A stretch of DNA of 55,263 nt from Jiangella asiatica. GTDB taxonomy: Bacteria; Actinomycetota; Actinomycetes; Jiangellales; Jiangellaceae. This document shows positions 1,951 through 47,536 of this stretch, one piece after another. Position 1 is the stretch's first letter, and each line of letters opens with the position of its first letter. Both the position numbers and the translations under genes were made by a program. Under the pieces are notes generated by a model. The model ran no database searches and was not told where the DNA came from. It saw only the letters and a list, made by a program, of their open reading frames with translations. The stretch covers positions 1 to 55,263 of the forward strand of contig NZ_SMKZ01000047.1 of the NCBI RefSeq assembly GCF_004349065.1, written 5' to 3'.

Positions 1951-2931
1951 TCACAGCAGGCCGTGCCGGCGCCAGACGGCCTCGGCCGCGGGATGGAACG
2001 GGATCGGCAGCGGTGCGTCGACGGCGTCGGCGCACATCCGCTCCAGCGGCAGGGTGGAGCCGCCCTGCCAGGCGATCCGATCGCGTGCGGCCACGAGCGC
2101 CTCACAGAAGCCGCCCACCGCGCCTCCGGCCGCGTCGGCGCGGGTGAAGATCAGGAAACCGCTGAAGTCGACGGTCGCCACGTCGGCGGCAAGTGCCGGG
2201 TACCGCTGCCGGCGCAGCCAGCCGCGTCGGTAGCCCAGTACGGTCAGCCGGGCCATGGCGTCGTCGGGGACGTCAAGGAAGGACAGGCCCGCGTCCGTGG
2301 CCAGCTCGACCCAGTTGTACACGCCCTCGTCGAAGACGGCGTCGACGGCGCCGCCGCGCAGCAGGCCGGCGCGCACCGAGGCGTGGGGCAGGCCGTTGTC
2401 GTAGCGGACGGTGCCGCCCCAGGACTCCAGGTCAGCCACCGAGGCACCGCCCGCCCGCAGCGTGTCGTCCAGCACCAGGTGCACCAGGTGGTTGGGCCGG
2501 TTGCCGCGCAGCGACAAGCGCAGCGCCGGCGCCGCGGCGACGAGGTCGTCCAGGGTGCCGAGGCCGAGCGCCCGCGGCACCGCCAGGCCCAGCTGGTCGT
2601 ATGACGGCACGGTGGCGATGGCCGCCAGCTCGTCTCCGGTCGTCCCGTCCAGCCGCAGCAGGGCCGGCTGGACGGCTGTTGCCGGGTTGATGATCGCGAC
2701 GAGGCTGGCGCCGCTCAGGACCGCCTCGACCGCATCGACCCCGTCGCTGGCGAACAGCGACGTGGCCCAGTCCGCCGCGCCGGGCGCCCGCATGTCGACG
2801 CGCACCTGCTGATGCGGCCAGGACCTGGTGCCGACCAGCTCCGACGCGACCTCCAGCATGAGCCGCGACCGCACCGAGGCCGCGCGGGGCCGCCGCTGCG
2901 GATACCGCGGCGGCTCGGCCCGGTCGGTCAC
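1951..2931 (-). CDS. TAXI/NMT1-like binding-fold protein without signal peptide
   Basis: A 326-aa protein resembling the TAXI-type TRAP solute receptors (periplasmic-binding fold, PF16868/NMT1 neighbourhood). Supporting segments are the VRVDMRA opening strand, AIINPATAVQPA, RLSLRGNRPNHLV, and the closing LPIPFHPAAEAVWR, which resembles the end of TAXI receptors. It has no signal peptide, lipobox or membrane segment: the N terminus is PRYPQRRPRAASVRS. It may therefore be a cytoplasmic enzyme or sensor built on a receptor fold, like the DHPDC-like proteins of this island. No TRAP membrane subunits are nearby. Its GTG start overlaps the ubiX-like stop (GTGA), so it is the last gene of the 13.6-kb unit 1. 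Function not known. Confidence 0.6.
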   Translation of the reverse strand: MTDRAEPPRYPQRRPRAASVRSRLMLEVASELVGTRSWPHQQVRVDMRAPGAADWATSLFASDGVDAVEAVLSGASLVAIINPATAVQPALLRLDGTTGDELAAIATVPSYDQLGLAVPRALGLGTLDDLVAAAPALRLSLRGNRPNHLVHLVLDDTLRAGGASVADLESWGGTVRYDNGLPHASVRAGLLRGGAVDAVFDEGVYNWVELATDAGLSFLDVPDDAMARLTVLGYRRGWLRRQRYPALAADVATVDFSGFLIFTRADAAGGAVGGFCEALVAARDRIAWQGGSTLPLERMCADAVDAPLPIPFHPAAEAVWRRHGLL

Positions 2932-3533
2932 GGCCGCTGCCTCGTGACGTTGCCGTCCCAGCGGGGGCTCTGCTGCGAGACCAGCCCGACCTGGTCCAGC
3001 GCCCGGGTAACGATGTGGTCCACCGCCTCCTCCAGCGTCTTGGGTCGCGCATAGAACCCCGGCACCGGCGGCAGGATCGAGACGCCCATTCTCGCCAGCT
3101 TGAGCATGTTCTCCAGGTGGATCTCGCTCAGGGGCGCCTCACGGACCAGCAGCACCAGCCGGCGCCGTTCCTTCAGAACCACGTCGGCGGCTCTGGCCAC
3201 GAGGTCTTCGGCATAGCCCGCGGCGATGGCGGCGAGGGTCTTGACGCTGCACGGCGCGACCATCATCCCGTCGGTGTGGAACGACCCGCTGGAGATGGTG
3301 GCACCGAGGTCGCCGGGCCGGTGCACCACGTCGGCCAGCTGCCGGACCTCCGCGAGCGACCAGTTCGTCTCGTGCTCCAGCGTGCGTCCGCCCCACGCGG
3401 TGACGACCAGGTGGGTCTCGACGTCGAACTCGCGAAGCCGCTCGAGCATGCGCACGCCGAGGATCGAGCCGCTGGCGCCGGTGATGGCGACGATCAGCCG
3501 CCGCGGCTGCGCCTGGCCCCGCGTGGTGCTCAT
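2928..3533 (-). CDS. ubiX: UbiX-family flavin prenyltransferase
   Basis: A 201-aa UbiX/Pad1 homologue. The family joins dimethylallyl phosphate to reduced FMN to make prenylated FMN, the cofactor of UbiD decarboxylases. Family marks are the N-terminal flavin loop ITGASGSILGVRML, the Ser/Thr-rich GATISSGSFHTDGM, the APCSVKTLAAIAAG segment, the KERRRLVLLVREAPLS stretch with phosphate-binding residues, and the C-terminal PPVPGFYARPKTLEE. The start is ATG 3533, overlapping the upstream stop (ATGA). Longer in-frame extensions would run into the neighbouring gene. It is the only ubiX-like gene in the window and probably supplies all three UbiD proteins. Confidence 0.92.
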   Translation of the reverse strand: MSTTRGQAQPRRLIVAITGASGSILGVRMLERLREFDVETHLVVTAWGGRTLEHETNWSLAEVRQLADVVHRPGDLGATISSGSFHTDGMMVAPCSVKTLAAIAAGYAEDLVARAADVVLKERRRLVLLVREAPLSEIHLENMLKLARMGVSILPPVPGFYARPKTLEEAVDHIVTRALDQVGLVSQQSPRWDGNVTRQRP

Positions 3534-4006
3534 CCGGCCACCTCCCGCAGCTTCTGGACCTGCCAGGACCACCGTTCGACGACGGCGGCGGGGTCGGCCA
3601 GCCGGTAGGTGATGCCGGAGACGAGCTCGGCGTAGCCGACTCGGTCCTCGTCCACCGCCTCGACGTGGCCGTGGAAGAACGCCAGTGGCTCGCCGCCCCG
3701 GTCGATGCGCCGGACCCGCGCCCGGATCTTGTAGCTGGTCCCGTCCAGCACGAGGTTGAGCAGTGCCCGGCCCGACCCGGCGAGCGCCGCGGTCGTGCCG
3801 CTTCCGGCGTACAGGGCGAGCCGGAGGTCGGTGCCGGTGACGCTGAGCACCTCGCCAACGCTGAGCAGCGCGAGCCGTGGCCACCCGTCGTCGCCGGCGG
3901 TCGTGAGCGAGATGGTGTGGCCGACGCGTCCGGCGAGGTCGGTCCCGTCGAGCAGGGCCGCGACCGGCGATGGCAACCGGACGTCAGTGCAGGGAGGTGT
4001 GTTCAC
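3530..4006 (-). CDS. FMN-binding split-barrel (PNPOx-like) protein
   Basis: A 158-aa protein resembling the pyridoxamine 5'-phosphate oxidase-like split-barrel fold: GHTISLTTAGDDGWPRLALLSVGEVL, then RLALYAGSGTTAAL, RALLNLVLDGTSYKIRARVRRI, and a C-terminal SGITYRLADP. Such proteins bind FMN, F420 or haem. Because it lies directly upstream of ubiX and overlaps its start by 4 bp, a role in flavin supply or reduction for prenyl-FMN is tempting, but that is inference. The start is GTG 4006, two bases past the MmgE/PrpD stop. An upstream in-frame ATG (4117) would lie inside the MmgE/PrpD gene and encodes Arg/Pro-rich sequence that looks like a shadow. Confidence 0.6.
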   Translation of the reverse strand: MNTPPCTDVRLPSPVAALLDGTDLAGRVGHTISLTTAGDDGWPRLALLSVGEVLSVTGTDLRLALYAGSGTTAALAGSGRALLNLVLDGTSYKIRARVRRIDRGGEPLAFFHGHVEAVDEDRVGYAELVSGITYRLADPAAVVERWSWQVQKLREVAG

Positions 4007-4007
4007 G

Positions 4008-5357
4008 CTAGCTCCTTCCGGCGGTGGCCGACGACGGGGTCGCGCGCAGCGCCGCGGCCACCTCGGCCGCGGACCGCCCGGCGACGCCGAAGACCACCTC
4101 GTCGAGACTGCCGCCACCGACGGCGGCCAGCTTCTCGCGGATCGTCTCCCGGGTCAGCGGTTCGGCAGGTTCCCCGGGCGCACCGTCGCGGTGGACCACC
4201 AGGGGGGAGCCGCTCCGGCGGGTGATCCGCAGCCCGACCCCGGACGGCGGCAGGCCCGCGCCGACATCGACGCTCACCCGGGCGCGGGCGAACTGCGCGA
4301 GTGGGACGTCACTCCTGCGATCCGCGGTGAACTGCTCGATCCAGCACTGTCTGTCGTGCAGCACGACCGTGGTGACGTAACGGGCGGACTGCATGGCGCT
4401 GAGCTCGTCGTCCCAGCCCATGTCCCCGCACATCGCGTAGGACGTGGGCGGCAGCGCGACGTCGACGCCGACGAGGTCCGACGGCCGCAAGTCGTCGGCG
4501 GGGACCGACAGCAGGGCGGCGACCAGCGACTGGAGCGAGCTCGCCGCGGCCCAGCGGCGCAGCGAGATCTGCTCCAGCTCCCACCGCTCGCCCAGCTGCC
4601 GGGTGATGTGCCCGGGACGGCCGCCACCGGCGTAGGTCGTGAGCAGTCCGCCGTCGGTGTGCGTGAGGATGTTCTCGGCCCCGCCGAGGCCGCCGGCGGC
4701 GAACCGGGCCGCCCACAGCCCCGAGACCGCGCCGCGGGCCTGGTGGAACTTCACCGCCGGGGTGCCGAGCGCGGCGAACGTGCCGGCCGCCTGGCTGCCG
4801 CCCAGGCCCATCGCCGCGCAGACGCCGGCGGCGTCCAGACCCAGCGCCCGCGCCGCGGCCATCGCTGCGCCGATCGTGCCGATGACACCGGGTGCGTGCC
4901 AGCCCCTGGCCCTGAAGACCGGGTAGTCGACACCGAGGCCGAGCCTGGTGGTGACCTCGAGGCCGGCCGCGATGGCGGTGAGCAGGTCCCGTCCGCTGAC
5001 GTCGCCGGCTTCGGCGACGGCCAGCACGGCCGGTACCACCTCCGGAGTCACGTGGCACAGGGCCGGGCGGTACACGTCGCACATGGTGAACGCGGTGATC
5101 TGGTAGCCGTTCAGCAGGGCGGCTCCGGTGGGCGCCAGGGTGCCGCCGCCGACGACGGTGCTGTCGCCGGGGCCGCACAGCGCGGTGGCCAGCCCTTCGA
5201 CCGCCGCCGTGTTGGCGGCGGACCGGCCGGCCAGGGCGTTGGCCACCGCGTCCGCCCAGATCTCGACGACGCGGTCCTGGACCCGGGGCGGCAGGTCGTC
5301 CCAGTCCAGCTCCGCGACGAACCGGCTCAGCTTGGTCTCCGGCGTGGTGGGCTTCAC
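4008..5357 (-). CDS. MmgE/PrpD family protein
   Basis: A 449-aa member of the MmgE/PrpD family. Known members are 2-methylcitrate dehydratase, iminodisuccinate epimerase and cis-aconitate decarboxylase, which act on small di- and tricarboxylic acids. The all-helical N-terminal domain contains ALLNGYQITAFTMCDVYRP, then GRGWHAPGVIGTIGAAMAAA-like sequence (the FRARGWHAPG segment is typical), MGLGGSQAAGTFAALGTPAVKFHQARG, and the C-terminal lid LTRETIREKLAAVG. The exact reaction cannot be assigned. Given the tricarboxylate-type transporters and decarboxylases around it, dehydration, decarboxylation or epimerisation of a polycarboxylate intermediate is likely. It starts with a GTG that overlaps the LLM gene's stop (GTGA). 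Confidence 0.85.
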   Translation of the reverse strand: MKPTTPETKLSRFVAELDWDDLPPRVQDRVVEIWADAVANALAGRSAANTAAVEGLATALCGPGDSTVVGGGTLAPTGAALLNGYQITAFTMCDVYRPALCHVTPEVVPAVLAVAEAGDVSGRDLLTAIAAGLEVTTRLGLGVDYPVFRARGWHAPGVIGTIGAAMAAARALGLDAAGVCAAMGLGGSQAAGTFAALGTPAVKFHQARGAVSGLWAARFAAGGLGGAENILTHTDGGLLTTYAGGGRPGHITRQLGERWELEQISLRRWAAASSLQSLVAALLSVPADDLRPSDLVGVDVALPPTSYAMCGDMGWDDELSAMQSARYVTTVVLHDRQCWIEQFTADRRSDVPLAQFARARVSVDVGAGLPPSGVGLRITRRSGSPLVVHRDGAPGEPAEPLTRETIREKLAAVGGGSLDEVVFGVAGRSAAEVAAALRATPSSATAGRS

Positions 5358-6316
5358 GCGCGCACGGCCCCGTCCTGCCGGGCGCGCGCACCCGCGATCC
5401 GCTCGCGGAACGGTTCAACCACCGACTCGTGGAACCGCTCGACCGCGGCGGTCACCTGCGCCGGAGTCGCCGCGTCGAAGACCAGGACCAGCTCGTGCAG
5501 ACCGGCCTCGGCGAAGCGCACGACCTCGTCCACCATTCGTGCGGCCGAGCCGTGCAAGGTGTAGACGTCACGGGCCGCCGCGCCGAACTCGACGCGGGCT
5601 CGCACCGACAGCGTCGGCAGCGCCCGGCCCGCGTCAGCGGCGAGCGAGGCCAGCATCGGCAGCCGCCCGGCGAGGTCGGCCGGGCCGGTCTGCGAGGCGT
5701 GGTACCCGTCGGCGAGCCGGGCGGCCCGGCGCAGTGCCCGCTCGCTGCGCCCGCCACACCACACGGGGATGTCTCGCGCTGTGGGCAGCGGCAGGAACAC
5801 GTAGCCCGACAACGTATGGAACTCACCCGCGAACGGGTCGGTGCGACCGGACCACAGGTGCCGCCACAGCGCGATCGACTCGTCCACGTACGCGCCGCGG
5901 CGGGCGAACCGGTCGGCCTTGCCGAGGTTGGTGTACTCGGGCAGGTCCATGCGGTCGCTCGCGCCGACGCCGACCACGAGCCGGCCGCCGCTGAGCACGT
6001 CGAGTGTGGCCAGCTCCTTCGCCAGCAGCGGCGAGTCGCGCATCGCCGGCACGACGACGCTGGTGCCGACGGTGACCCGCTCGTGCCGCGCGGCCACGTA
6101 GGTGAGCGAGGTCAGTGCCTCCAGCATCGAGCCGTACTCGCCGGCCTCCGGCCCGTCCGGCACCATCAGGTGGTCGGTGACCCACACACTGTGCCAGCCC
6201 AGCCGCTCGACGGCGGCGGCGCCGGCGTCCAGCGCCTCGGGCCCGGCGCCGCGGCCCTTGTTCGCCAGCACCAGGCCGAAGCGCAGGTCAGAACTGGGCT
6301 CATAGCCGGCCGTCAC
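5354..6316 (-). CDS. LLM class flavin-dependent oxidoreductase
   Basis: A 320-aa luciferase-like TIM-barrel oxidoreductase, FMN- or F420-dependent. Supporting segments: LRFGLVLANKG (strand 1), AVERLGWHSVWVTDHLMVPDG, VTVGTSVVVPAMRDSPLLAKELATLDVLSGGRLVVGVG (the classic LLM core, residues about 75-115), IPVWCGGRSERALRRAARLADGYH and a C-terminal HELVLVFD. The GTG start at 6316 overlaps the UbiD stop (GTGA). A longer frame to 6415 exists but would lie inside ubiD. It may hydroxylate or reduce a pathway intermediate. A second, less similar LLM gene occurs at 27971-29035. Confidence 0.85.
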   Translation of the reverse strand: MTAGYEPSSDLRFGLVLANKGRGAGPEALDAGAAAVERLGWHSVWVTDHLMVPDGPEAGEYGSMLEALTSLTYVAARHERVTVGTSVVVPAMRDSPLLAKELATLDVLSGGRLVVGVGASDRMDLPEYTNLGKADRFARRGAYVDESIALWRHLWSGRTDPFAGEFHTLSGYVFLPLPTARDIPVWCGGRSERALRRAARLADGYHASQTGPADLAGRLPMLASLAADAGRALPTLSVRARVEFGAAARDVYTLHGSAARMVDEVVRFAEAGLHELVLVFDAATPAQVTAAVERFHESVVEPFRERIAGARARQDGAVRA

Positions 6317-7851
6317 GGCGTGCTCCGCAAGATCCAGTCCCACGTCTCGCGCACGGCGAGCTTCTCCGCGGGTGCCGGGCCGATCGGGTCGGGGAACCGG
6401 TCGCGCCACTCCCACGGCCGCGTCGCGTCGATGATCAGCCGGCTGTTGTAGCCCTTCCTGCCCGGTTCGATGGCCGGGTCGAGGTTACCGCTGGTGGTGC
6501 GCGTGAGGATCTGCACGTCGCGCTCGGGGTCGTGCCGGGTGCAGACGGCCCAGATGACCTCGTGCAGGTCGGTGACGTCGATGTCGTCGTCGACCACGAC
6601 GACGATGCGGCCGAGGTAGGCGCCCTGCCGGCACTGGCTGGCCACCAGGGCGGCCTGCTTGGCGTGGCCGGCGTACTGCTGCTTGATCGAGATGACGTTG
6701 AACAGCCGGCAGCCGCCGACGCTGTGCGTCCACGCGGCGACGACGCCCGGCACGCCGGCGGCCCGCACCTCGCGGCGCAGGTTGGCGCTGCGCCCGTACT
6801 GCTGGAACCGCTGGCCCTCGTACGGCGGCTTCTGCGGCGGGCAGCCCAGCAGGATGGGGTCGTCCCGGTGGTAGATCGCGTCCACCCGGAACACCGGCTG
6901 CTGCTGTTCCTTCGAGGCGTAGTAGCCGGTCCACTCGCCGAACGGGCCCTCCAACCGGGTCTCGTCCGGCAGCACGTATCCCTCCAGCGCGATCTCGGCA
7001 CCGGCCGGGATCGGCAGCCCGGTGACGCGCCCCTCGACGCAGTCGATCGCCTCGCCGGTGATACCGCCGATCCACTCCAGCTCGCTGACCCCGTCCGGGA
7101 TCTCCAGCGCCGCGCCCAGGAAGTGCAACGGCGACAGCCCGACCAACATGACGCACGGCATCGGCTCGCCGCGGTCGAACCAGGCCTGCTGGTGGGCTCG
7201 CCCGTGCTTGCCCGGCGAGATGTAGAGGCCGGTGTGGTTGCGGTCGTGGATCATCGCCCGGTACGTGCCGTAGTTGACCCAGCCGGTGTCGGGGTCGGCC
7301 GTGACCACGGCGACCGCGGTGCCGATGTAGCGGCCGCCGTCCTCCTGGTGCCACAGCGGCGTCGGAAACGCGTTGAGGTCGACGTCGTCATCGGCCAGCA
7401 CGTTCTCGGTGATCGGGCCCTCGACGACGACGTTCACCGGCCGGGGCCGCGCGTCGATGAGCCAGGCCTCCCACGCGTCCACGAGGCCGGCGGCCGAGAC
7501 GTTCTCGTCCAGCCCGATGGTCATGGCCAGCCGGTTGCGCCGCGACAGCGTGTTCACCAGTATCCGGTACCCGGACGGGTACCCGGGGATGTCGTCGAAG
7601 AGCACGGCCGGGGCGTCCTCGTCGTGGTGCAGCATCTCGGTGATCTGTCCGATGCCGCGCTCGCAGTCCACGCCGCGCAGCACCCGCAGCTCACCCATGG
7701 ACGCCGCGCGTGCCAGCCACTCGCGGGCGTCTCGTGGCACCTTCGGCGCCGCCCGCCCGTCGGCCGGCCCGTCGATGGCATAGGGCACCATGCGCACCGT
7801 CCTGCCGTCGACCACGCGCTCCACGCCGGTGGTCGTGTTCTCCAGCGTCAT
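6313..7851 (-). CDS. UbiD family decarboxylase (copy 1)
   Basis: A 512-aa UbiD-type decarboxylase. These enzymes use prenylated FMN for reversible, non-oxidative removal of CO2 from aromatic, heteroaromatic or alpha,beta-unsaturated acids. The active-site Arg-Glu-Glu set is visible: Arg in YGTYRAMIHDRN (about residue 206) and both Glu in EGPFGEW (about residue 300). HTGLYISPGKH and VVVVDDDIDVTDLHEVIWA are also conserved. The start is ATG 7851, preceded by an AGGGAG ribosome site. It is co-transcribed with ubiX four genes downstream. Closely related to the UbiD at 23303-24739 and less so to that at 45896-47329. It has about 30 more N-terminal residues than copy 2. Confidence 0.92.
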   Translation of the reverse strand: MTLENTTTGVERVVDGRTVRMVPYAIDGPADGRAAPKVPRDAREWLARAASMGELRVLRGVDCERGIGQITEMLHHDEDAPAVLFDDIPGYPSGYRILVNTLSRRNRLAMTIGLDENVSAAGLVDAWEAWLIDARPRPVNVVVEGPITENVLADDDVDLNAFPTPLWHQEDGGRYIGTAVAVVTADPDTGWVNYGTYRAMIHDRNHTGLYISPGKHGRAHQQAWFDRGEPMPCVMLVGLSPLHFLGAALEIPDGVSELEWIGGITGEAIDCVEGRVTGLPIPAGAEIALEGYVLPDETRLEGPFGEWTGYYASKEQQQPVFRVDAIYHRDDPILLGCPPQKPPYEGQRFQQYGRSANLRREVRAAGVPGVVAAWTHSVGGCRLFNVISIKQQYAGHAKQAALVASQCRQGAYLGRIVVVVDDDIDVTDLHEVIWAVCTRHDPERDVQILTRTTSGNLDPAIEPGRKGYNSRLIIDATRPWEWRDRFPDPIGPAPAEKLAVRETWDWILRSTP

Positions 7852-7861
7852 CGGGCTCCCT

Positions 7862-8296
7862 TCAGTTGGGCTCGGTCGCGCCGTCGGTACCGTCGGTGCT
7901 GACGAAACGCGGCACCCGGACGCCGTCCTCGTCGTCGAAGACCACCCGGACCGCCATCCCCACCCGCAGGTCCGCGCCGGAGAGCGGCAGCACATTGCTG
8001 ATCAGCCGTGGCCCCTCGTCCAGCTGCACCAGGACGACGTTGTAGGGCACCCGGTCCGACCATGCCGGGTGGTAGCGCTGGTGGACCACCACGTACGAGA
8101 GCACCTCGCCGCGGCCCGACACCGGCTGCCAGGTCCACTCGGCGTCGAGGCAGCGCGGGCAGCGCGACGCCGGCGGATACCGCAGCTCCCCGCAGCCCAG
8201 GCACCGCTGGACCCGCAGGACGCCGTCGTCGACGCCCTCCCAGAAGCCGCGGTTGACCTCGGTCCGCACCGGCCGGACGAACCCCCCGTCGCTCAT
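7862..8296 (-). CDS. DUF35 zinc-ribbon/OB-fold protein
   Basis: A 144-aa member of the DUF35 (OB-fold plus rubredoxin-like zinc ribbon) family. The Zn ligands are CLGCGELRYPPASRCPRC (residues about 32-49), followed by an OB domain with GRGEVLSYVVVHQRYHP and NVVLVQLDEGPRLISNV. DUF35 proteins form complexes with thiolase-fold enzymes: the archaeal thiolase/HMG-CoA synthase complex, and ChsH2 with the steroid aldolase Ltp2. It overlaps the upstream thiolase-fold gene by 4 bp (ATGA), so the two very likely form one complex and this subunit gates substrate access. Confidence 0.9.
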   Translation of the reverse strand: MSDGGFVRPVRTEVNRGFWEGVDDGVLRVQRCLGCGELRYPPASRCPRCLDAEWTWQPVSGRGEVLSYVVVHQRYHPAWSDRVPYNVVLVQLDEGPRLISNVLPLSGADLRVGMAVRVVFDDEDGVRVPRFVSTDGTDGATEPN

Positions 8297-9485: not shown

Positions 9486-10238
9486 TCAGCGGCCGAGGAA
9501 CCGCGGCCGGCGCTTCTCCCGGAACGCCGCGCGGCCCTCGGCCCGATCCTCGGTCGTGGCGAGCAGCCGCCACAGCAGTCGTTCCATCGCCAGCTCGGAG
9601 CCCGCACCCCGGGCCGCCGTTCGCGCGAGCTTGGCGGCGCGCATCGACAGCGGCGCCGCTTCGGCCAGCGTCGCCACCAGGGCCGCGACGTCGGCGTCGA
9701 ACGTCTCGGCCGGCAGCACGTCGCTGACCAGGCCGAACCGTGCGGCGTCCGCGGCGTCCATCCGGCTGCCGGTCAGCAGCATCCGCCACGCCAGCGCGGA
9801 GGGCAGCGCGTCGAACAGCCGCTGGGTGCCGCCGCTGCCCGGCAGGCTGCCCAGGCGCAGCTCGCTGAGCTGGAACCAGGCGGTGCCGGCTGCCACCCGG
9901 AGGTCGGCGGCCAGCGCCAGTTCGAAGCCGCCGCCGACGGCCGGGCCGTTCACGGCGGCCAGCACCGGTCGGGTGCAGCGGTCGACCGGCGCGCTCACCG
10001 GTGCGCCGAGGTCCAGCAGCCCTCGCGCCGGCGCCTCCTCGAGCAGGTCGACCCCCGCGCAGAAGGCCGTGCCGGTCCCGGTGAGGACGATGACCCCGAC
10101 GTCGTCGTCGGCCTCCAGTTCCGCGAACGCCTCCGCCAGCCTGCGCCGGGTCGCCTGGTCGATGGCGTTACGGCGCTCGGGGCGGTTCAGCCGCACCCAC
10201 CCGACGCCCCCGTCGCGCTCCCACAGCACCGCCTCCAT
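9486..10238 (-). CDS. Enoyl-CoA hydratase/isomerase family protein
   Basis: A 250-aa crotonase-fold protein. Oxyanion-hole segments are visible: GTAFCAGVDLLEEAP and AAVNGPAVGGGFELALAADLRVA. The usual catalytic region is ELRLGSLPGSGGTQRLFDALP (Glu at ELRLG), followed by ARFGLVSDVLP. It probably adds water to an alpha,beta-unsaturated acyl-CoA to give the beta-hydroxyacyl-CoA that the neighbouring thiolase-fold protein could split. It ends in RPRFLGR, typical of the family. Its ATG shares one base with the CoA-transferase stop codon (TGATG), so the two are translationally coupled. No acyl-CoA dehydrogenase is nearby, implying that the substrate arrives already unsaturated. Confidence 0.9.
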   Translation of the reverse strand: MEAVLWERDGGVGWVRLNRPERRNAIDQATRRRLAEAFAELEADDDVGVIVLTGTGTAFCAGVDLLEEAPARGLLDLGAPVSAPVDRCTRPVLAAVNGPAVGGGFELALAADLRVAAGTAWFQLSELRLGSLPGSGGTQRLFDALPSALAWRMLLTGSRMDAADAARFGLVSDVLPAETFDADVAALVATLAEAAPLSMRAAKLARTAARGAGSELAMERLLWRLLATTEDRAEGRAAFREKRRPRFLGR

Positions 10239-39961: not shown

Positions 39962-41684
39962 GCCCGTACGTCCGTGGCTCGCGGGCAAGCCCCGCGTCGC
40001 GGTGTTCGCCGGGCCGAACGCGACAGTGCTCAACAGCGCGCCCCTGGTCACGTCCAACCAGGCGCGGGAGCGGCACGGCCTGCCGCCGCTCACCGACCGG
40101 TGGGGCGACCGTCTGCGGTTCGACCAGCTCCGGCCGCAGCGGCTGGCCGCACCGGTGACGGTGTACGTGGAGCAGTTCTCGGCCCATCCGCTGGAGGCCG
40201 ACGCCGCCCACCTCTACGGACCACCGGACGGCTATCTCGACGACGCCGGCCGGTTCGGCACTGAGCGGCGCGCACCGTCGGACCGGCCGGTCTATCGCAT
40301 CGAGCTGCGGCCCGAGGACGGTCTGCTGCCTCTGCCCTACATGGGTGTCCGGGCCGACGGCAGCGCGTGGGACGGCGACGCCACCGGGCCGGACGCTCCC
40401 CCGGACGCGACCCGGCAGCCGTTCTACCCGGACGCGGCGCGCGTGTTCGAGGAGATCGACCGCCTCGGCTACGGCGAGCACGCCGAGAGCAACCTGCTCG
40501 GCCGGCACGCCGACTTCGACTTCTTCCGCGTTCTGCCGTCGGGCGGCTACACCCGCGGCCTGGCCGAGGGCGAGCGCACCGACGTGGGCACCGGCGGGAT
40601 CGCTGCGGAACGATGGGGCGAGGACTTCTTCCCGTACCGGCCCGGCCACCTTCGCGGCGAGCCGCCCCGCGCGGCGCTGGCCGAGGTCACCAACCGGCTC
40701 AGCGGTGCCCTGGCCACCGGCACGTATCAGGCGGCGCTGTGGCTCGACGCGAGCCCGGCCATCGAGGAGACGCTGTACTGGCTCACGCTGGTGCTCGACA
40801 CCGAGGTGCCGATCGTCGGATGCGCGTCGACCGAGTGGCCGCACGGCTGCCTGGGCGCCACCGGCGACCGCAACCTGGTGCACGCCGTCGAGTACCTGCG
40901 CTCCGGGATCTGGCGTGACCACCAGGGCCGCGACCGGCTCGGCGCGGTCCTGGTCGACGCCGAGCGGGTGCTGCTGGCCCGGGACGTGCAGAAGGCCGAC
41001 GCCCGGCCGGGCGGGTTCGGCGTCACCGGCGGGCACGGCGGTATCGTCGCCACCATCGGCGACCCGGGCCCGCCGGTGCTCACGGCGCTGCCGGTGTGGC
41101 GGCACACCTACGGTTCCGACGTGCGGCTGACGGCGATCCCCCGGCGGGTGCGGGGCGTCCGCCGATCCGGCGCCGGTGACGGAGCCGAGGCCATCGACGT
41201 CGAGGTGAAGGACGGTGCGGGCGGGCTGCTCGGCTCCGCGGTGCCGCACGTGTCGATCTTCAAGCACGCCCGGTATCTCACCACCGGGCCCGACGGCATC
41301 GACGACGAGGTCGAGCTGCTGGCGCGGATCGACCACAACCTGCGCCACCGCGGGCTCGCCGGCTTCGTGGTGGAGGCGAACGCGCCCTACGGGTCCAGCG
41401 CGCCGTCGGCTGACGCGGTGCTGCGCCGGACCGCCCTGTGCGGGATGCCGGTCGTCCGGGTCGGCCGGGGCAACGGCGAAGGCTGGGTGCCGCACGACCG
41501 CATGCGGCTGGCGATCGCCGGGGCCAATCTCACCGCGACCAAGGCTCGGATGCTGCTGATGGCGTGCCTGCTGCGGTTCGGGGCGCCGCCGCCGGCCGCC
41601 GATCCGGACTCGCCGACCGCAGCGGAGCTGGCCGCCGTCGAGGCCGCCCTGCAGCATTACCAGGCCGTCTTCGACACCCATTGA
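39948..41684 (+). CDS. Asparaginase-like (PF00710-fold) protein with altered active site
   Basis: A 578-aa protein whose halves resemble type I/II L-asparaginases, much longer than the usual 320-350 aa. Related segments: PRVAVFAGPNATVLNSAPLV (place of the TGGTI motif), DASPAIEETLYWLTLVLD (place of THGTDTMEETA), EVPIVGCAS and GDRNLVHAVEYL. At the C terminus GLAGFVVEANAPYG, GMPVVRVGRGN and NLTATKARMLLMACL match the asparaginase small domain. The catalytic Thr-Asp pair reads Ser-Pro, so normal asparaginase chemistry is unlikely. Long insertions occur at residues about 30-190. GTG start overlaps the ATPase gene. Possibly a specialised amidase, or a lactone or ester hydrolase; function not known. 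Confidence 0.65.
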
Positions 41685-41776: not shown

Positions 41777-41806
41777 CTTAGTTACTCGACGGAGAGGCGG
41801 ACGACC

Positions 41807-42841
41807 GTGGCACACGTGAGGTTGTCGTTCGGCTCCGGTCTCAACGTGCACACCGAGGCCCTCGTCGACGGCACCGTCACCCCGCAGGGCATCGAGCTCG
41901 TCCCCACGGTCGCCCACCCGTCGGAGCTGTTCTGGCGCCAGCTGCGGTACGGCGAGTTCGACGTCTGCGAGATGTCGCTGTCGTCGCTGTTCATCGCCCA
42001 TGCCAGGGGCAGTGACCTGGTCGCGCTGCCGGTGTTCCCGTCGCGCCGCTTCTTCCACACCGAGCTGGACGTCCACGTCGACGCGGGTGTCACCGAACCG
42101 CACCTCCTGGCCGGCAAGCGCATCGGTGTCGGCGAGTACCAGCAGACGGCGGCCCTGTGGCTGCGCGCGGTACTCGAGCACGACTTCGGTGTCTCGCAGT
42201 ACGACGTCGAGTGGTACATGGAGCGCGGGGTCGAGCACAGCCACGGTGGCGCCACCGGCTTCACCCCACCCGACGGCATCTCGTTCCACCGTGTCCCGCC
42301 GGAGAAGAGCCTCGCGTCGATGCTGCTCGACCGCGAGCTGGACGCGGCCTTCGTCCGGCCGAACCGCCGCACCGCGGCCACCAACTTCATCGAACGGTCC
42401 CAGCGCCAGCGCGGCGGCGACTGGAGCAAGGTCGCTCCGGCGTTCGGCGACGGCGTCGCCGAGGGTGCCCGGTTCTTCGCGGCGCACGGCTACATCCCGA
42501 TCAACCACGCCTACGTCGTCCGTGCCGACCTGCTGCGCCGGCATCCCTGGGTCGCGCACAACCTGTGTGCGGCCTTCCTCGAGGCCAAGCTCGCCGGCCA
42601 GCGACGAACGTTCGAGCGCATCCCCCTCAACCTGGTCTTCCGGTGGGAGTACCTGGAGCGCACCCGCGCCGCGGTCGGCGAGGACCCCTTTCCCTACGGC
42701 CTCGGCGCCAACCGCCCCGTCCTCGAGTCGATGGTGCGCTTCTCGCACGAACAGGGACTCATCCCCGAGGTCTTCCCCGTCGACGACCTGTTCGCCGAGA
42801 GCACCCGGCTGTGGTCGGCCGGCGGCCAGGGGACGCGCTGA
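41807..42841 (+). CDS. 4,5-dihydroxyphthalate decarboxylase-like/NMT1-fold protein (copy 3)
   Basis: A 344-aa cytoplasmic protein, a near paralogue of 16911-17924. Shared segments include DGTVxPxGIxL, GEFDVCEMSLSSLF, ALPVFPSRRFFHTEL, GKRIGVGEYQQTAALWLRAVLEHDFGVSQYDVEWYMERG and HSHGGATGF. No signal peptide. GTG 41807 has GGAGAGG about 9 nt upstream; a longer open frame to 41438 lies inside the asparaginase-like gene. It heads unit 6, before an ABC receptor and permease, as copy 1 stands back to back with the other ABC set. Possibly a decarboxylase; an adaptor or sensor role is not excluded. Confidence 0.82.
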   Translation: MAHVRLSFGSGLNVHTEALVDGTVTPQGIELVPTVAHPSELFWRQLRYGEFDVCEMSLSSLFIAHARGSDLVALPVFPSRRFFHTELDVHVDAGVTEPHLLAGKRIGVGEYQQTAALWLRAVLEHDFGVSQYDVEWYMERGVEHSHGGATGFTPPDGISFHRVPPEKSLASMLLDRELDAAFVRPNRRTAATNFIERSQRQRGGDWSKVAPAFGDGVAEGARFFAAHGYIPINHAYVVRADLLRRHPWVAHNLCAAFLEAKLAGQRRTFERIPLNLVFRWEYLERTRAAVGEDPFPYGLGANRPVLESMVRFSHEQGLIPEVFPVDDLFAESTRLWSAGGQGTR

Positions 42842-42893: not shown

Positions 42894-44045
42894 ATGACGC
42901 TTCCCCTCCGGCGGCGACGCCGGCCCAGAGCACGCGTCCTGGCCGGCCTGGTCGCCGCTGCCGCCGTCGTCGGCTCGTGCGGCGACGGGTCGGGCGGCAC
43001 CGGCGGCGACGGTGGGACCAGTGAGGCCCAGGAGCAGGCCGAGGGCGTCTACGAGGAGTTCGCCAGCATGTCCGGCACCGAGCGCGAGCAGGCCCTCTAC
43101 GAGGGTGCGCTCGATGCCGGCGGGCGCATCACGGTCTACACCTCCAACTCCGCCATCGACTCCATCATCGAAGGCTTCGAGGAAACGTACGAGGACCTCG
43201 AGGTCAACACCTACCGGGCCACGCCACAGGCATTCATCCAGCGCTTTTTCCAGGAGCAGGAGGCCGGCTACCACGGCGTCGACGTCGTGGAGGACGCCGA
43301 CGTCACGCTGGTCACCGAGCGCGGCCTGGCCGGCGAGTACGTCCATCCGGACCTCACCGACCAGATCCGTGGCCTGGACGACGTGCAGGGCCAGTTCATC
43401 CCCACCCGGATGGGAGCGTTCGTGGTGTCGTGGAACACCGACGCGGTGGACGAGAGCGAGATCCCGGACACGATCGAGGGCTTCACAGACCCGAAATGGG
43501 AGGGCCGGCTCTCGATCGCCGACGCGGACTGGCCGTGGTACATGGCCCTGCACGAGCAGATGGAGGCGGCGGGCAAGTCGCATGAGCAGATCGTCGAGAT
43601 CTTCCAGACGCTGGCCAGCTACTCGACCATCGTGCCCAGCCACACCCTCCAGGCCGAGCTGCTTGCCGCCGGTGAGTACGACGTCGCACTCACCACCTTC
43701 AACCACGCGGTGAACCTGCTCCAGGCCGACGGGGCCGCAGTGACGTGGAAGCGCGCGGACGGCAGCGCCGTCGAGCCCATCGTGTTCCACCAGGAAGGTG
43801 CCGTGCCGGTAGTCAACGCGCCGAACCCGTGGGGCGCGCTGCTGTTCATCGACTACCTGCTGACCGGCGGGCAGGACATCATGGCCGGCCTCTACCGGCC
43901 GACGTCGATCCCCCAGGGCCAGGACGACCTGTTCGCGGGGCTCGACCAGGTATTCGTCCCGATCGACGAGTACTTCAACAGCCGCGACGAATGGGAGCCG
44001 GAATGGCTCGGCTTCCTCGACGAGGGCACCCAGCACCAGGAGTAG
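42894..44045 (+). CDS. ABC transporter substrate-binding lipoprotein, family 1 (copy 2)
   Basis: A 383-aa receptor, exactly the length of its paralogue at 18034. Signal peptide rich in Arg (PLRRRRRPRARV) with lipobox VVGSCGDG (Cys at about residue 29), then a Gly/Glu linker. Core: GRITVYTSNSAIDSIIEGFEE, YHGVDVVEDADVTLVTERGL, IPDTIEGFTDPKWEGRLSI, YSTIVPSHTLQAELLAAGEYD and NPWGALLFIDYLLTGGQDI. GAAAGGAGA precedes ATG 42894. The ligand is unknown but is likely close to that of copy 1. Confidence 0.9.
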   Translation: MTLPLRRRRRPRARVLAGLVAAAAVVGSCGDGSGGTGGDGGTSEAQEQAEGVYEEFASMSGTEREQALYEGALDAGGRITVYTSNSAIDSIIEGFEETYEDLEVNTYRATPQAFIQRFFQEQEAGYHGVDVVEDADVTLVTERGLAGEYVHPDLTDQIRGLDDVQGQFIPTRMGAFVVSWNTDAVDESEIPDTIEGFTDPKWEGRLSIADADWPWYMALHEQMEAAGKSHEQIVEIFQTLASYSTIVPSHTLQAELLAAGEYDVALTTFNHAVNLLQADGAAVTWKRADGSAVEPIVFHQEGAVPVVNAPNPWGALLFIDYLLTGGQDIMAGLYRPTSIPQGQDDLFAGLDQVFVPIDEYFNSRDEWEPEWLGFLDEGTQHQE

Positions 44046-44064
44046 GCGACGGCTGGAGGCGACC

Positions 44065-45849
44065 GTGAGCGAAGCAGGACCGACGACGGCGACGTTGCCG
44101 CCGGCGCCGAAGCGTGGCGAGCCGGGCTCCGGCGGCGTGTCCGGCAATGGCCGGTGGCTGCGGCTGGCCCGCACGGGCTTCCAGACCCGCAACCTCATCG
44201 TGCTCGCCGTCGTGATCGTCATCGCGTACCTGGCCGCGGTACCGCTGTTCTACCTGATCCACGGCACGTTCGTGGAGAACGGGTCGGTCACCCTCGACGC
44301 CTTCGGCCGAGCCTACTCCGCCGTCGGGCTCGGCGAGATGGTCTGGAACTCGTTCCTGTTCGCCGGCGGCAGTGCCCTGCTGGCGATGGTGATCGGCACC
44401 TTCCTCGCCTACGTGACCATCCGCACCGACGCGCCGTTCCCGACGCTGGTCTTCGCCGCCTCCATGGTGCCCCTGATCATCCCCGGCGTCCTCTACACCA
44501 TCGCCTGGATCCTGCTGTCCAGCGAGAACATCGGCGTGCTGAACCAGGTCTCGTCCGCGATCCTGGGGCGGCCGGTCTTCGACGCGTTCTCGATGCCGGG
44601 CATGATCTGGGTGGAGGGGACGCACAACGCTCCCCTGGTCTACCTGTTCATGGTGGCCGCGTTCCGCTCCATGGACCCGGCGATGGAGGAGTCGGCCCTG
44701 CTGTCCGGGGCGAACCGGCTCACCATGATCCGCCGGATCGCGCTGCCGCTGGTCCGCCCGGCTCTCGCCGCCGCGACGCTGATCATGGTCGTGCGCGGGC
44801 TGGAGGGCTTCGAGGTGCCGGCGCTGCTCGGCGTGCCCGGCGGCATCTTCGTGTTCACCAGCCGGATCTTCTACGAGCTGCAGAACTTCCCGATCGACAC
44901 CGCGGCCGCCGGGTCGCTGTCGCTGAGCCTGCTCGCCTTCGCCGCTGTCGGCGTCTTCCTCACCAACAGGTTCGGCAGCGGGCGGGACGGCCAGTTCAGC
45001 ACGATCACCGGCAAGGGGTTCCGTCCGCACCCGATCGAGCTGCGGCGCGCCAAGCCCGTCGTCGGAACGCTCGTGCTGCTCTACTTCCTGGTCACCGCCG
45101 CACTGCCCGTTGGCGTGCTGCTCTACACCTCGATGCTGCCGTTCGCACAGCAGTTCTCGCTCGACGTCTTCTCGTCCATGACCTTCGACAACTACGCCGA
45201 GCTGTTCGACGACCGCGCGTTCCCGCGCGCCACCATGAACTCGCTGCTGCTCGGCGCCGGCGCGGCAACGGCGGTGGTGGTCCTGGCCGCAATCGCGGCG
45301 TGGCTGATCGCCCGCACCAAGGTTCCCGGCCGGCAGATCGTCGACCAGCTGGCGTTCCTGCCCCTCGTCGTGCCCGGCATCGTGCTCGGCCTGGCCGTCT
45401 CGTTCGTCTACCTGCGCAACCCGCTGCCGTTCCAGGTGTACGGGACGATGCTGATCTTGCTGATCGCCTACGTCACCCGCTTCCTGCCCTACGGGATGCG
45501 GTACGCCGTGTCGGCGATCCAGCAGATCTCCGGTGAGCTCGAGGAGTCGGCCTACGTGTCCGGGGCGAGCTGGTGGAAGACGTTCCGGCGCGTCCTGGTG
45601 CCGCTGATCGTCCCCGGGCTGCTGGCCGGCTGGCTCTACACGTTCATCATCTCCGTCCGCGAGTTGTCCAGCTCGATCGTGCTCTACACGCCGGGCAACG
45701 AGGTGCTGTCGATCCTCACCTGGAACTACTACGAGGACGGCCAGCTCACCACGGTCGCCGCACTCGGCGTGGTGATGATCGGCGGCCTCACCGTGCTCGT
45801 CACCCTCGTCTACGCCATCGGCACCAGATTCGGCCTGCGTGATCGCTGA
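44065..45849 (+). CDS. ABC transporter permease, fused double domain (copy 2)
   Basis: A 594-aa permease with two tandem BPD_transp_1 domains, closely similar to 19205-21010 throughout (GTFLAYVTxRTxxPF, GLLYTISW versus GVLYTIAW, TGKGFRP). EAA loops: MEESALLSGANRLTMIRR and LEESAYVSGASWWKTFRR. The GTG start is 19 bp after the receptor stop. No ATPase gene follows: the next gene is a UbiD. The ATPase encoded at 21050 is the obvious candidate partner, since the coupling loops in both permeases are conserved. Confidence 0.93.
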   Translation: MSEAGPTTATLPPAPKRGEPGSGGVSGNGRWLRLARTGFQTRNLIVLAVVIVIAYLAAVPLFYLIHGTFVENGSVTLDAFGRAYSAVGLGEMVWNSFLFAGGSALLAMVIGTFLAYVTIRTDAPFPTLVFAASMVPLIIPGVLYTIAWILLSSENIGVLNQVSSAILGRPVFDAFSMPGMIWVEGTHNAPLVYLFMVAAFRSMDPAMEESALLSGANRLTMIRRIALPLVRPALAAATLIMVVRGLEGFEVPALLGVPGGIFVFTSRIFYELQNFPIDTAAAGSLSLSLLAFAAVGVFLTNRFGSGRDGQFSTITGKGFRPHPIELRRAKPVVGTLVLLYFLVTAALPVGVLLYTSMLPFAQQFSLDVFSSMTFDNYAELFDDRAFPRATMNSLLLGAGAATAVVVLAAIAAWLIARTKVPGRQIVDQLAFLPLVVPGIVLGLAVSFVYLRNPLPFQVYGTMLILLIAYVTRFLPYGMRYAVSAIQQISGELEESAYVSGASWWKTFRRVLVPLIVPGLLAGWLYTFIISVRELSSSIVLYTPGNEVLSILTWNYYEDGQLTTVAALGVVMIGGLTVLVTLVYAIGTRFGLRDR

Positions 45850-45895
45850 CAACCCGACCGGCGCCAGCCAGACCACCCGAGCGAAGGAGACCCGG

Positions 45896-47329
45896 ATGGA
45901 CAGCCTCACCCTCGACCTGCGCGAGTTCATCAAGGCCGTCGAGGCCGGCCAGCCGGATGCGCTGGTGCACGTCGACAAGCCGGTCGACCCCGCGGCATTC
46001 GAGGTCACTGCCGTCCTCCAGCAGCTGGAGGATGCGGGCCGCTTCCCGATGGCGATCTTCCATCAGCCGCTGAACCTGCGCGGCGAGGTCTCCCGGTTCC
46101 CGCTGATCACCAACGTGTTCGCCGACCGCGCCCGGTGCGCACAGGCCCTCGGGCTGCCGGTCACCGAGGCGAAGTTCCCGCTGAGCATCGAGTACGGCCG
46201 CCGCGAGCAGGACCGCATCGCACCCACCGTCGTCACGCCCGGCGAGAGCCCGGTGAAGGACGTCGTCAAGGTGGGTGACCAGGTGGACCTGCGCGAGTTC
46301 CCCATCGTGCGCCACCACCACATGGACCCGGCGCCCTACATCGACATGACGCCGATCATGCGCGACCCCGACTCCGGCGCGTACAACGCCGCCTACCTGC
46401 GCACCATGTACAAAGGGCCCCGCAAGCTCGGCCTGCACATGTCGCCGCGGCACAGCTGGCAGATCACCCGCAAGCACGAGGACCGTGGGCTGCCAACACC
46501 CGTGGTGATCGTGGTCAGCCACCATCCGGCGTTCTTCCTCGGCACCCTCAACGTCGCACCGTTCGGCGACGACGACTACGAGGTGATCGGCTCGGTCGCC
46601 GGCCGCTCGCTGCGGCTGGTGCCGTCGGAGACCTGGGGCGAGGACTTCATGGTGCCGGCCGACGCCGAGATCGTGATCGAGGGCGTGATCCCGCCGGGCG
46701 TGCGAGAGGTCGAGGGACCGTTCGGGGAGTTCCCTGGCACGTACGGCCCGCAGCGGCTTCGGTGGGTCGTCGACGTCACCGCCGTCACACACCGCCGCGA
46801 CGCCATCTATCAGGACGTGTTCGTTGGGCACCCGGACGACTGGATCCAGGGCGGGCTGCCGAAGGAGGCGCGGATCTACAACCGGATCAAGGGTGTCGTG
46901 CCGTCCGTCCAGGCCGTCCACCTGCCGGTCTCCGGGGTGTGCCGGCTGCACTGCAACATCGCCATCGACAAGAAGGTGGACGGCGAATCCAAGCAGGCGG
47001 CGATGATCGCGCTCGGCGAGGTCGACATGATCAAGCACGTGTTCGTGGTCGACGCCGACGTCGACCCCTTCGACGACCGGCAGGTGCTCTGGGCGATCGC
47101 CACCCGGGTCCAGGCCGACCAGGCGATCGACATGATCAAGAACGCCAAGGGCAACACCCTCGACCCGTCCCAGACGGACCCCATCATGACCACCAAGATG
47201 ATCGTGGACGCGACGAAGCCGGTGCGGCGGCCGTTCTCGGAGCGGATTCTTGTCCCGGACGATGCGAAGGCCAGGGTCCCGATGGCCGACTACGTCCGCG
47301 AGTCCGCCCCCGCGGCGGCGGGCGAGTGA
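45896..47329 (+). CDS. UbiD family decarboxylase (copy 3, divergent subfamily)
   Basis: A 477-aa prenyl-FMN-dependent decarboxylase, less like copies 1 and 2 than they are like each other. Active-site set: Arg in AAYLRTMYKGPRKLG (about residue 170), Glu pair in EGPFGEFPGTYGP (about residue 272). Also the N-terminal DLREFIKAVEA and LHVDKPVDPAAFEVTAVLQ-like region, and C-terminal DADVDPFDDRQVLWAIATR. It resembles the vanillate/hydroxybenzoate-decarboxylase and 3-polyprenyl-4-hydroxybenzoate branch. ATG 45896 has AAGGAGA upstream. It follows an ABC permease by 46 bp and precedes a small zinc-ribbon gene by 12 bp. Confidence 0.92.
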   Translation: MDSLTLDLREFIKAVEAGQPDALVHVDKPVDPAAFEVTAVLQQLEDAGRFPMAIFHQPLNLRGEVSRFPLITNVFADRARCAQALGLPVTEAKFPLSIEYGRREQDRIAPTVVTPGESPVKDVVKVGDQVDLREFPIVRHHHMDPAPYIDMTPIMRDPDSGAYNAAYLRTMYKGPRKLGLHMSPRHSWQITRKHEDRGLPTPVVIVVSHHPAFFLGTLNVAPFGDDDYEVIGSVAGRSLRLVPSETWGEDFMVPADAEIVIEGVIPPGVREVEGPFGEFPGTYGPQRLRWVVDVTAVTHRRDAIYQDVFVGHPDDWIQGGLPKEARIYNRIKGVVPSVQAVHLPVSGVCRLHCNIAIDKKVDGESKQAAMIALGEVDMIKHVFVVDADVDPFDDRQVLWAIATRVQADQAIDMIKNAKGNTLDPSQTDPIMTTKMIVDATKPVRRPFSERILVPDDAKARVPMADYVRESAPAAAGE

Positions 47330-47341
47330 CAGGAGCAGCCC

Positions 47342-47536
47342 ATGGCCTCGATCTTCACCGTGGAATGCCCGTCGTGCGGGCAGAGCTTCCCCTGCCACAC
47401 CGAGCTGTGGCAGGCCGGCTACGACCTGCTGTGCCCGTTCTGCCAGGCCACGTTCCCGCAGGAGCGGAGCCCGCGCATCGTCTCCGCCACCGGCGACGTG
47501 GTGCGCAACGACACCGGCGCCGCCGAGGGGATGTAG
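47342..47536 (+). CDS. Small zinc-ribbon protein next to UbiD
   Basis: A 64-aa protein with two Cys pairs, CPSCGQ (residues 9-14) and CPFCQATF (about 31-38), and an intervening PCHTELW. Two CxxC knuckles predict one bound Zn2+. Small cysteine-rich D subunits (VdcD/BsdD type, about 75 aa) accompany UbiD C subunits in hydroxyarylic acid decarboxylases. This protein has the same position and size class but I cannot show homology. The gene starts 12 bp after ubiD copy 3, with AGGAGC before the ATG, and is the last of unit 6. Confidence 0.72.
   Translation: MASIFTVECPSCGQSFPCHTELWQAGYDLLCPFCQATFPQERSPRIVSATGDVVRNDTGAAEGM

Follow-up and report, generated by a model that had tools for sequence, protein, structure and literature searches.

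A candidate polycarboxylate island in Jiangella asiatica, rich in decarboxylases and importers, with a rearranged counterpart in a Chloroflexota genome

Gene content and a counterpart in another phylum

Contig NZ_SMKZ01000047.1 of Jiangella asiatica (assembly GCF_004349065.1), the whole of which (55,263 nt) is the window analysed here, carries at 1951-47536 a block of about 45 kilobases that combines decarboxylases with importers. An earlier note on this DNA, made from the sequence alone, had described four unrelated decarboxylase folds among at least five anion importers and proposed a dedicated route for an aromatic or heteroaromatic polycarboxylate. Matches to Pfam, NCBIfam and PDB entries bear out its inventory: three UbiD decarboxylases and one UbiX, three proteins resembling 4,5-dihydroxyphthalate decarboxylase (DHPDC-like), one PhtC-like class II aldolase and one LigW-like amidohydrolase, together with two tripartite tricarboxylate transporter (TTT) systems, two iron-type and one Tau-type ATP-binding cassette (ABC) sets and two major facilitator superfamily (MFS) proteins. 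No ATPase was found adjoining the second iron-type set (42900-45849). What the note had left out is a class III CoA-transferase pair (CoAT1 and CoAT2), an enoyl-CoA hydratase (ECH), a thiolase with a Zn-ribbon/OB-fold (Zn-OB) partner, two F420-type luciferase-like oxidoreductases (LLM-a and LLM-b), an MmgE/PrpD protein, a thiamine-diphosphate (TPP) enzyme, an aldehyde dehydrogenase (ALDH) and an RpiR regulator. Further members of the block that it had not named are a TAXI-fold protein and, behind UbiD-3, a Zn-ribbon protein of 64 residues.

The host genome comprises 7.03 Mb in 134 contigs and is 99.99% complete, and these 55 kb account for three of its four matches to UbiD and for every one of its DHPDC-like matches (three). 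Under random placement, the chance of such a concentration is 1.6e-12, a post hoc figure for genes that may owe their proximity to duplication within a cluster, which is not random placement. Since the minus-strand genes at 4008-17939 almost abut, with gaps of -20 to 53 bases (several starts are estimated), they are consistent with one operon.

The three DHPDC-like proteins were aligned, and patterns drawn from them were used to scan 84,980 species genomes. This gave 388 relatives, and among the best 80 only one had an identity above 52%, a protein of a Chloroflexota genome (JAHBUZ010000009.1) at 69%. A further 34.8 kb of that record was then read, and a contiguous but rearranged counterpart of the block was found at 56,035-87,595 (31.6 kb). 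With identities to the window proteins in brackets, its genes run in the order LLM-b (72%), MFS (43%), ALDH (57%), TPP enzyme (61%), RpiR (49%), CoAT2 (50%), CoAT1 (53%), ECH (54%), thiolase (79%), Zn-OB partner (46%), a flavin reductase (PF01613), UbiX (50%), UbiD-2 (71%), a DHPDC-like protein (38%), a Tau-type ABC set (substrate-binding protein, SBP, 23%; ATPase 49%; permeases 38 and 31%), UbiD-3 (83%), Zn-ribbon protein (69%), TAXI-fold protein (52%), TctC (53%), TctA (64%), TctB (33%), DHPDC-like 2 (69%), a further LLM (45%), DHPDC-like 3 (61%), MmgE (48%) and LLM-a (60%). Past this core come 6.5 kb without matches; the remainder of the stretch read holds two iron-type ABC sets, both related to the first set of the window (permease 48 and 54%, ATPase 54 and 59%).

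Of the 41 window proteins used in comparisons, 27 were matched in the Chloroflexota pieces at 43-83% identity, a match being at least 40% identity over at least 60% of the length. Three of these (UbiD-1, DHPDC-like 1 and the second permease) match the same gene as a paralogue does, which leaves 24 proteins with an individual counterpart; for 22 of the 24 it is inside the 31.6-kb core. The matches fall at 33 non-overlapping sites, 26 of them at 40% identity or more; the next-best independent record matched 4 of the 41 proteins, many records being shorter. On these comparisons we regard the unit as real and mobile. The genes of the second TTT system, the PhtC-like and LigW-like enzymes and the 578-aa protein have no counterpart in the Chloroflexota region read. 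Thus, the proposal of a dedicated route holds for much of the block, which has its rearranged counterpart, but does not extend to the PhtC/LigW/TTT-2 segment; likewise, all four decarboxylase folds are present in the window, but the conserved part holds two of them (UbiD and DHPDC-like), since PhtC and LigW are without counterpart, and one TTT set.

The absence of a UbiD-3 orthologue (E≤1e-120) from all 21 other genomes of the order suggests that the island was acquired by its host. None was found in 395 others sampled in the phylum, a weaker negative as few candidates per genome were scored. In a sample of 400 genomes from the phylum of the Chloroflexota genome, eight have such an orthologue and only one (G417) exceeds 65% identity; in the flanks of UbiD-3 in three further genomes of this sample, only UbiD-3 itself, the Zn-ribbon protein and ABC ATPases were matched. 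Metagenomes yielded 176 relatives of DHPDC-like 2 at E≤1e-100, with at least six others at 80% identity or more among the 120 matches listed, 1,057 relatives of UbiD-3 at E≤1e-100 among 8,000 scored, and 148 of the TAXI-fold protein at E≤1e-10, itself counted. The entry for one UbiD-3 relative (82%) and those for two DHPDC-like relatives (62% and 61%) all give 31,333 bases as the length of the longest contig, which suggests, though it does not prove, that the three share one metagenome contig. Among plasmids, no match at 60% identity or more was found for DHPDC-like 2, UbiD-3, LLM-b, UbiD-2 or the TPP enzyme within the best 10-25 matches per query.

Table 1. Features of the window. 'Core' is our label for parts of the island core; 'start est.' marks an estimated start. 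Scores are in bits.
Feature	Position	Strand	Remarks
TAXI-fold protein without signal peptide	1951..2931	-	core
UbiX flavin prenyltransferase	2928..~3500	-	core; NF004685 249, cut-off 188
Small ORF 5' of UbiX	3530..4009	-	no Pfam match
MmgE/PrpD family protein	4008..5357	-	core; PF03972 156
LLM-a, F420-type luciferase-like oxidoreductase	5354..6289	-	core; start est.; TIGR03619 178, cut-off 166.9
UbiD-1	6313..7854	-	start est.; PF01977, PF20695, PF20696; best PDB 7pda 350
Zn-ribbon/OB-fold thiolase partner	7862..8260	-	core; start est.; PF01796 + PF12172
SCP2-type thiolase	8293..9432	-	core; start est.; PF22691
Enoyl-CoA hydratase/isomerase family (ECH)	9486..10238	-	core; PF00378 187
CoAT1, class III CoA-transferase	10238..11458	-	core; PF02515 364
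RpiR/SIS regulator	11448..12329	-	core; PF01418 + PF01380
Aldehyde dehydrogenase (ALDH)	12343..13782	-	core; PF00171 471
Thiamine-diphosphate (TPP) enzyme	13779..15620	-	core; three TPP Pfam domains
MFS transporter 1	15601..16899	-	PF05977 + PF07690
DHPDC-like protein 1	16911..17939	-	tblastn 36% to DHPDC-like 2
First iron-type ABC set: SBP, fused permease, ATPase	18055..22195	+	PF01547, PF00528, PF00005
MFS transporter 2 (MFS2)	22176..23306	-	core; PF07690 79
UbiD-2	23303..24739	-	core; PF01977 (with PF20695, PF20696)
TTT transporter 1: TctB, TctA, TctC	24771..27900	-	core; PF01970 404, PF03401
TctB of TTT 1	24771..25355	-	below Pfam cut-off
LLM-b, F420-type luciferase-like oxidoreductase	27971..29035	-	core; best PDB: F420-dependent Mer reductases, 135
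DHPDC-like protein 2	29032..30039	-	core; PDB 9jp7 306
CoAT2, class III CoA-transferase	30026..31267	-	core; start est.; PF02515 214
TTT transporter 2: TctC, TctB, TctA	31470..34575	+	PF03401, PF07331, PF01970
PhtC-type class II aldolase	34579..35355	+	NF053537 217.8, cut-off 200
LigW-type amidohydrolase	35383..36402	+	PDB 4icm 294
Tau-type ABC set: permease, SBP, permease, ATPase	36399..39961	+	PF00528, PF09084, PF00005
578-aa protein, weak asparaginase-C tail	39948..41684	+	PF17763 20, under cut-off
DHPDC-like protein 3	41792..42811	+	core; tblastn 38% to DHPDC-like 2
Second iron-type ABC set: SBP + fused permease	42900..45849	+	PF13343, PF00528
UbiD-3	45893..47329	+	core; PF01977 (with PF20695, PF20696); best PDB HmfF 6h6v 281
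64-aa Zn-ribbon protein paired with UbiD-3	47342..47536	+	core; Cys motifs

The fused permease of the second iron-type set is 60% identical to that of the first. Two candidate open reading frames (ORFs) were rejected: 36422-37216 as a DHPDC-like gene, where the frame is noise and the true gene is an ABC permease, and 42000-44045 as a single gene, which is overlapped by DHPDC-like 3 and a lipoprotein SBP in frames of their own. Immediately past the block, at 47581-50286, is a 901-aa ORF with a sulfatase domain that overlaps an opposite-strand NYN/OST-HTH ORF.

UbiD enzymes and other decarboxylases

All three UbiD proteins matched the N-terminal, central and C-terminal domains of the family (PF20695, PF01977 and PF20696, respectively) and contain the segments of the E-R-E network motif, EGPFGE, I(A/V)(L/I)EG and TYR/YLR. 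UbiD-1 and UbiD-2 show 56% identity and have the same closest solved relative, 7pda, a structure for which our literature search found no paper. Both are 30-31% identical to UbiD-3, whose closest solved relative is HmfF. The anaerobic o-phthalate cluster on plasmid 2 of Aromatoleum aromaticum EbN1 (NC_006824.1) holds a second kind of UbiD (UbiD_b, WP_011255029, at 13920-15434 of the stretch L107 taken from it) beside its Tau-type ABC set that is 49.5% identical to UbiD-1/2, and the EbN1 UbiX is 58% identical to that of the window. The possibility that any of the three is a phthaloyl-CoA decarboxylase was rejected, given their 25-27% identity to the EbN1 enzyme (WP_011255033).

UbiD-3 is not classed as HmfF because the residue that determines furan specificity differs. 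According to PMC7976604, H297 is the key residue for furan specificity in HmfF, and the pyrrole-2-carboxylate decarboxylase HudA stays active with Asp at that site (N318D). Our alignment of this one loop pairs the His of HmfF (296 by chain count) with an Asp of UbiD-3, which hints at a substrate other than furandicarboxylate. UbiD-3 also differs from HmfF in having an extra Zn-ribbon partner gene. This 64-aa gene is found behind genes of the UbiD-3 type even where their identity falls to 44-46% (for example, at 8748-8912 of the locus L104), a recurrence that suggests a small accessory subunit of UbiD-3-type enzymes.

The small ORF upstream of UbiX occupies the place that the PF01613 flavin reductase has in the Chloroflexota island, and the two could not be aligned. 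PhdC is a maturase of prenylated FMN (prFMN) according to PMC13040415. The small ORF is a possible PhdC-like maturase, and the flavin reductase could have a role in prFMN maturation like that of PhdC.

Judged by sequence, all three DHPDC-like proteins belong to the DHPDC family. DHPDC-like 2 is closest in the PDB to 9jp7, an entry named '4,5-dihydroxyphthalate decarboxylase', at a score that places it in the family. In a FastTree phylogeny of 88 sequences it pairs with its Chloroflexota orthologue (support 1.0), the next node, to 81 others, being weak (0.40). DHPDC-like 1 and 3 cluster with a Chloroflexota copy and a Desulfatiglandales copy (1.0), split from the other 84 (0.90), and probably are not the phthalate enzyme. 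ORFs with a Rieske motif, detected by a simple pattern, occur in 20 of 85 DHPDC-like loci examined, and in neither the Chloroflexota nor the Desulfatiglandales locus. On a Polaromonas CJ2 plasmid, a DHPDC-like gene (45.8% to DHPDC-like 2) stands in a phthalate-like context with a Rieske protein, a reductase and a Gfo/Idh dehydrogenase, and the neighbours of the DHPDC-like gene in a Peptococcaceae genome (L058) are unlike the genes of the window. Desulfatiglandales are anaerobic. In the metagenome-assembled genome of this order (L061, 6750-14044), a pair of AOR-like oxidoreductases and an Fe-S protein lie between two DHPDC-like genes, with TTT genes and a TPP enzyme adjoining; the AOR-like proteins score 142 and 153 bits, far under the model cut-off, and L061 is a single case, no AOR match being found at the other DHPDC-like loci compared.

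Of the two remaining decarboxylases, the class II aldolase exceeds the NCBIfam cut-off for the 3,4-dihydroxyphthalate decarboxylase PhtC, and the best solved relative of the amidohydrolase is the 5-carboxyvanillate decarboxylase LigW. Alignment to 4icm, in which we take the metal ligands to be Glu, His and Asp, shows the ligand positions conserved.

CoA chemistry, oxidoreductases and the search for ring-attack enzymes

The identity between CoAT1 and CoAT2 is 26%, and their genes lie 18.6 kb apart in the window; relatives are adjacent in the Chloroflexota counterpart and also on two plasmids. Each resembles a different CoA-transferase of EbN1 plasmid 2 (CoAT1, 36% to CoAT_b; CoAT2, 31%). The EbN1 o-phthalate cluster likewise combines UbiX, UbiD, two adjacent class III CoA-transferases, a Tau-type ABC set and TAXI, the last as TAXI-TRAP genes. 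It differs in lacking DHPDC, LLM, TTT and thiolase genes among those annotated in the 29 kb viewed, where the PLSDB annotation is incomplete. A second point of comparison is benzylsuccinate beta-oxidation (bbs), which, according to PMC10818641, uses paired class III CoA-transferases, an enoyl-CoA hydratase and a thiolase with a Zn-binding partner. The window has such a pair, a hydratase and a Zn-partnered thiolase, but the thiolase scores far under the cut-off of the BbsB family (NF053628, 106 against 750), and neither a BbsG-type acyl-CoA dehydrogenase nor a BbsCD-type short-chain dehydrogenase/reductase was found among the window proteins scanned, the rest of the genome lying outside that search. 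As a guess, the two LLMs could supply the equivalent oxidations. Plasmid stretches also hold this CoA module: that of Variovorax SRS16 groups matches to the thiolase (67%), its OB partner (50%), CoAT1 (43%), CoAT2 (34%) and ECH (40%), and plasmids of Rhodococcus opacus and Chelativorans AA-79 group them more loosely.

LLM-a scores above the threshold set for one F420 subfamily. For LLM-b the closest match is F420-dependent Mer, at a score under the Mer cut-off (145.5 against 276). CofD, the only F420-synthesis gene searched for, is above cut-off in both the host and the Chloroflexota genome. The F420 LLM family includes picrate reduction, in which F420H2 transfers hydride to the ring, as a review notes (PMC8498797).

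The product of 1951-2931 has the TAXI fold, but an export signal is absent, and for this reason it is not classed as a binding protein; a simple hydropathy test detected no hydrophobic N-terminus in any of 29 TAXI-fold sequences. It is probably a cytosolic use of the fold of a transporter binding protein. The VIA-align matches listed for a model of this protein do not include the DHPDC entry 9jp7, which argues in neither direction. No TRAP permease was found among the window proteins scanned.

The earlier note had found ring-cleavage enzymes absent, and this agrees with our searches. None was found among the window proteins scanned, and the host genome has no match to PF00848 (Rieske alpha subunit), PF00775 (intradiol), PF02900 (LigB-type) or BoxB (TIGR03225), the first of these being blind to Rieske oxygenases that lack PF00848. 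For catechol 2,3-dioxygenase (TIGR03211) there is only a partial match of 37.8 bits covering 87 of 303 positions, with a cut-off of 320.2. Among 14 control genomes, each of the three Pfam searches was above cut-off in four. Given the missing PF00848, PF00775 and PF02900 matches, a canonical phthalate or lignin route is less likely. The aerobic 4,5- and 3,4-dihydroxyphthalate routes (pht/oph) resemble the block in their DHPDC-like and PhtC-like decarboxylases and in TTT, ABC and MFS uptake, but the host genome is without a PF00848-type Rieske match and no dihydrodiol dehydrogenase was found among the proteins scanned.

Possible substrates and routes

Our preferred reading, to which we give a probability of about 0.45, is that 1951-47536 is a catabolic island gained by horizontal transfer. 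It would serve to degrade a polycarboxylic acid, most likely an aromatic or heteroaromatic di- or tricarboxylate, by decarboxylation and CoA-thioester chemistry. In such a route, the TTT and ABC systems would import the anion, and CoAT1 and CoAT2, acting as one two-subunit succinyl-CoA-dependent enzyme, would convert it to a CoA thioester. UbiD enzymes, supplied with prFMN by the local UbiX and perhaps assisted by the Zn-ribbon protein, would strip carboxyl groups, as would the DHPDC-like decarboxylases, which have the fold of periplasmic binding proteins (PBP). The two LLMs might stand in for Rieske dioxygenases by hydride transfer, to or from either the ring or the product made from it; MmgE/PrpD and the crotonase would carry out hydration or dehydration and either open the skeleton or prepare it; and the thiolase with its Zn-OB partner would cleave it to CoA esters, the TPP enzyme and aldehyde dehydrogenase processing the released fragment. 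We infer the substrate class, the order of steps, the pairing of the CoA-transferases and the LLM chemistry from the gene content. As the earlier note had supposed, no described pathway with this gene set was found, our search being of open full text, with subscription papers outside it.

Several points weigh against this reading. The aromatic-polycarboxylate assignment is drawn from relatives, and the UbiDs are only 25-27% identical to the EbN1 phthaloyl-CoA decarboxylase. No UbiD or DHPDC match was found near the plasmid CoA modules in the 40-45 kb read (three plasmid stretches); the module therefore is not in itself a sign that the substrate is aromatic, and the aromatic claim of the earlier note, in the form in which it was made, is not supported. 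The CoA-transferase, thiolase and hydratase half would suit a substituted succinate. The cofactor and direction of the LLMs are not readable from sequence, and the flavin reductase of the Chloroflexota island could serve an FMN-dependent LLM monooxygenase and thus oxygenation. The TIGR03211 and TIGR03225 negatives lack a positive control, since no control genome was above cut-off for either, and Rieske oxygenases without PF00848 or cleavage enzymes of the gentisate, homogentisate and 3-hydroxyanthranilate types, to which our searches did not extend, could be encoded elsewhere in the genome.

It is somewhat unlikely that the block is instead two or three clusters for different acids lying side by side (UbiD/LLM/CoA; DHPDC/TTT; PhtC/LigW/TTT/Tau), perhaps with a Rieske oxygenase encoded elsewhere, of a kind outside our search, feeding the DHPDC-like and PhtC-like enzymes. 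The several divergent gene blocks, the lack of Chloroflexota counterparts for PhtC, LigW, TTT-2 and the 578-aa gene, the plasmid stretches with the CoA module and no decarboxylases, and a Rieske search limited to PF00848-bearing oxygenases all speak for such an arrangement, as do the many contexts of DHPDC-like genes elsewhere, just 8 of 80 loci (the best 80 of 388) having a UbiD match. What argues for a single unit is that much of the island forms one contiguous block in another phylum, its main enzymes at 45-83% identity. We think it unlikely that the substrate is non-aromatic, such as an unsaturated or substituted succinate or a citrate- or aconitate-like tricarboxylate. In that case its degradation would follow a beta-oxidation of the Bbs kind, and acrylic or beta-keto acids would be what the UbiD and DHPDC-like enzymes decarboxylate. 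The tricarboxylate-family transporter, MmgE/PrpD, the CoA-transferase pair, the hydratase and the Zn-OB thiolase would all fit, the Variovorax SRS16 and Chelativorans AA-79 plasmid clusters join the CoA module to MmgE/PrpD and TTT genes, and UbiD enzymes accept acrylic acids too, according to PMC8379154. Set against this are the name of the PDB entry nearest to DHPDC-like 2, the relation of UbiD-3 to HmfF, a furandicarboxylate decarboxylase, and the place of the UbiD-1/2 relative in a phthalate cluster.

An anaerobic-style o-phthalate pathway, from phthalate through phthaloyl-CoA to benzoyl-CoA, is very improbable: the CoA-transferase pair, UbiX and UbiD, the Tau-type ABC set and the TAXI-like protein recall the EbN1 cluster, but the UbiDs, besides their low identity to phthaloyl-CoA decarboxylase, score 46-80 bits against its solved structure, BoxB for benzoyl-CoA is without a match and the TRAP permease is missing from the window proteins scanned. 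A bolder reading, which we consider a long shot, is a reductive, dioxygenase-free route for aromatic polycarboxylates in the actinomycete and the Chloroflexota organism. F420H2-dependent LLMs would transfer hydride to the electron-poor ring, activated as its CoA thioester, and so dearomatise it; UbiD and DHPDC-like enzymes would remove the carboxyls in turn, and the hydratase and Zn-OB thiolase would finish the degradation. The cytosolic TAXI-fold protein would then possibly be a further PBP-fold decarboxylating enzyme, and the AOR-like pair of L061 a possible low-potential equivalent.

Aerobic catabolism of aromatic acids usually relies on Rieske and ring-cleavage dioxygenases, and polycarboxylates include plasticiser acids and products of humic or black-carbon breakdown. 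A mobile island that is largely common to two phyla and joins decarboxylases to CoA chemistry, in a host with no above-cut-off match for the five ring-attack families searched, suggests that polycarboxylates are degraded by a route not yet described. Candidate decarboxylases that it makes available for assay are UbiD-2, UbiD-3 with its Zn-ribbon protein, and the DHPDC-like proteins.

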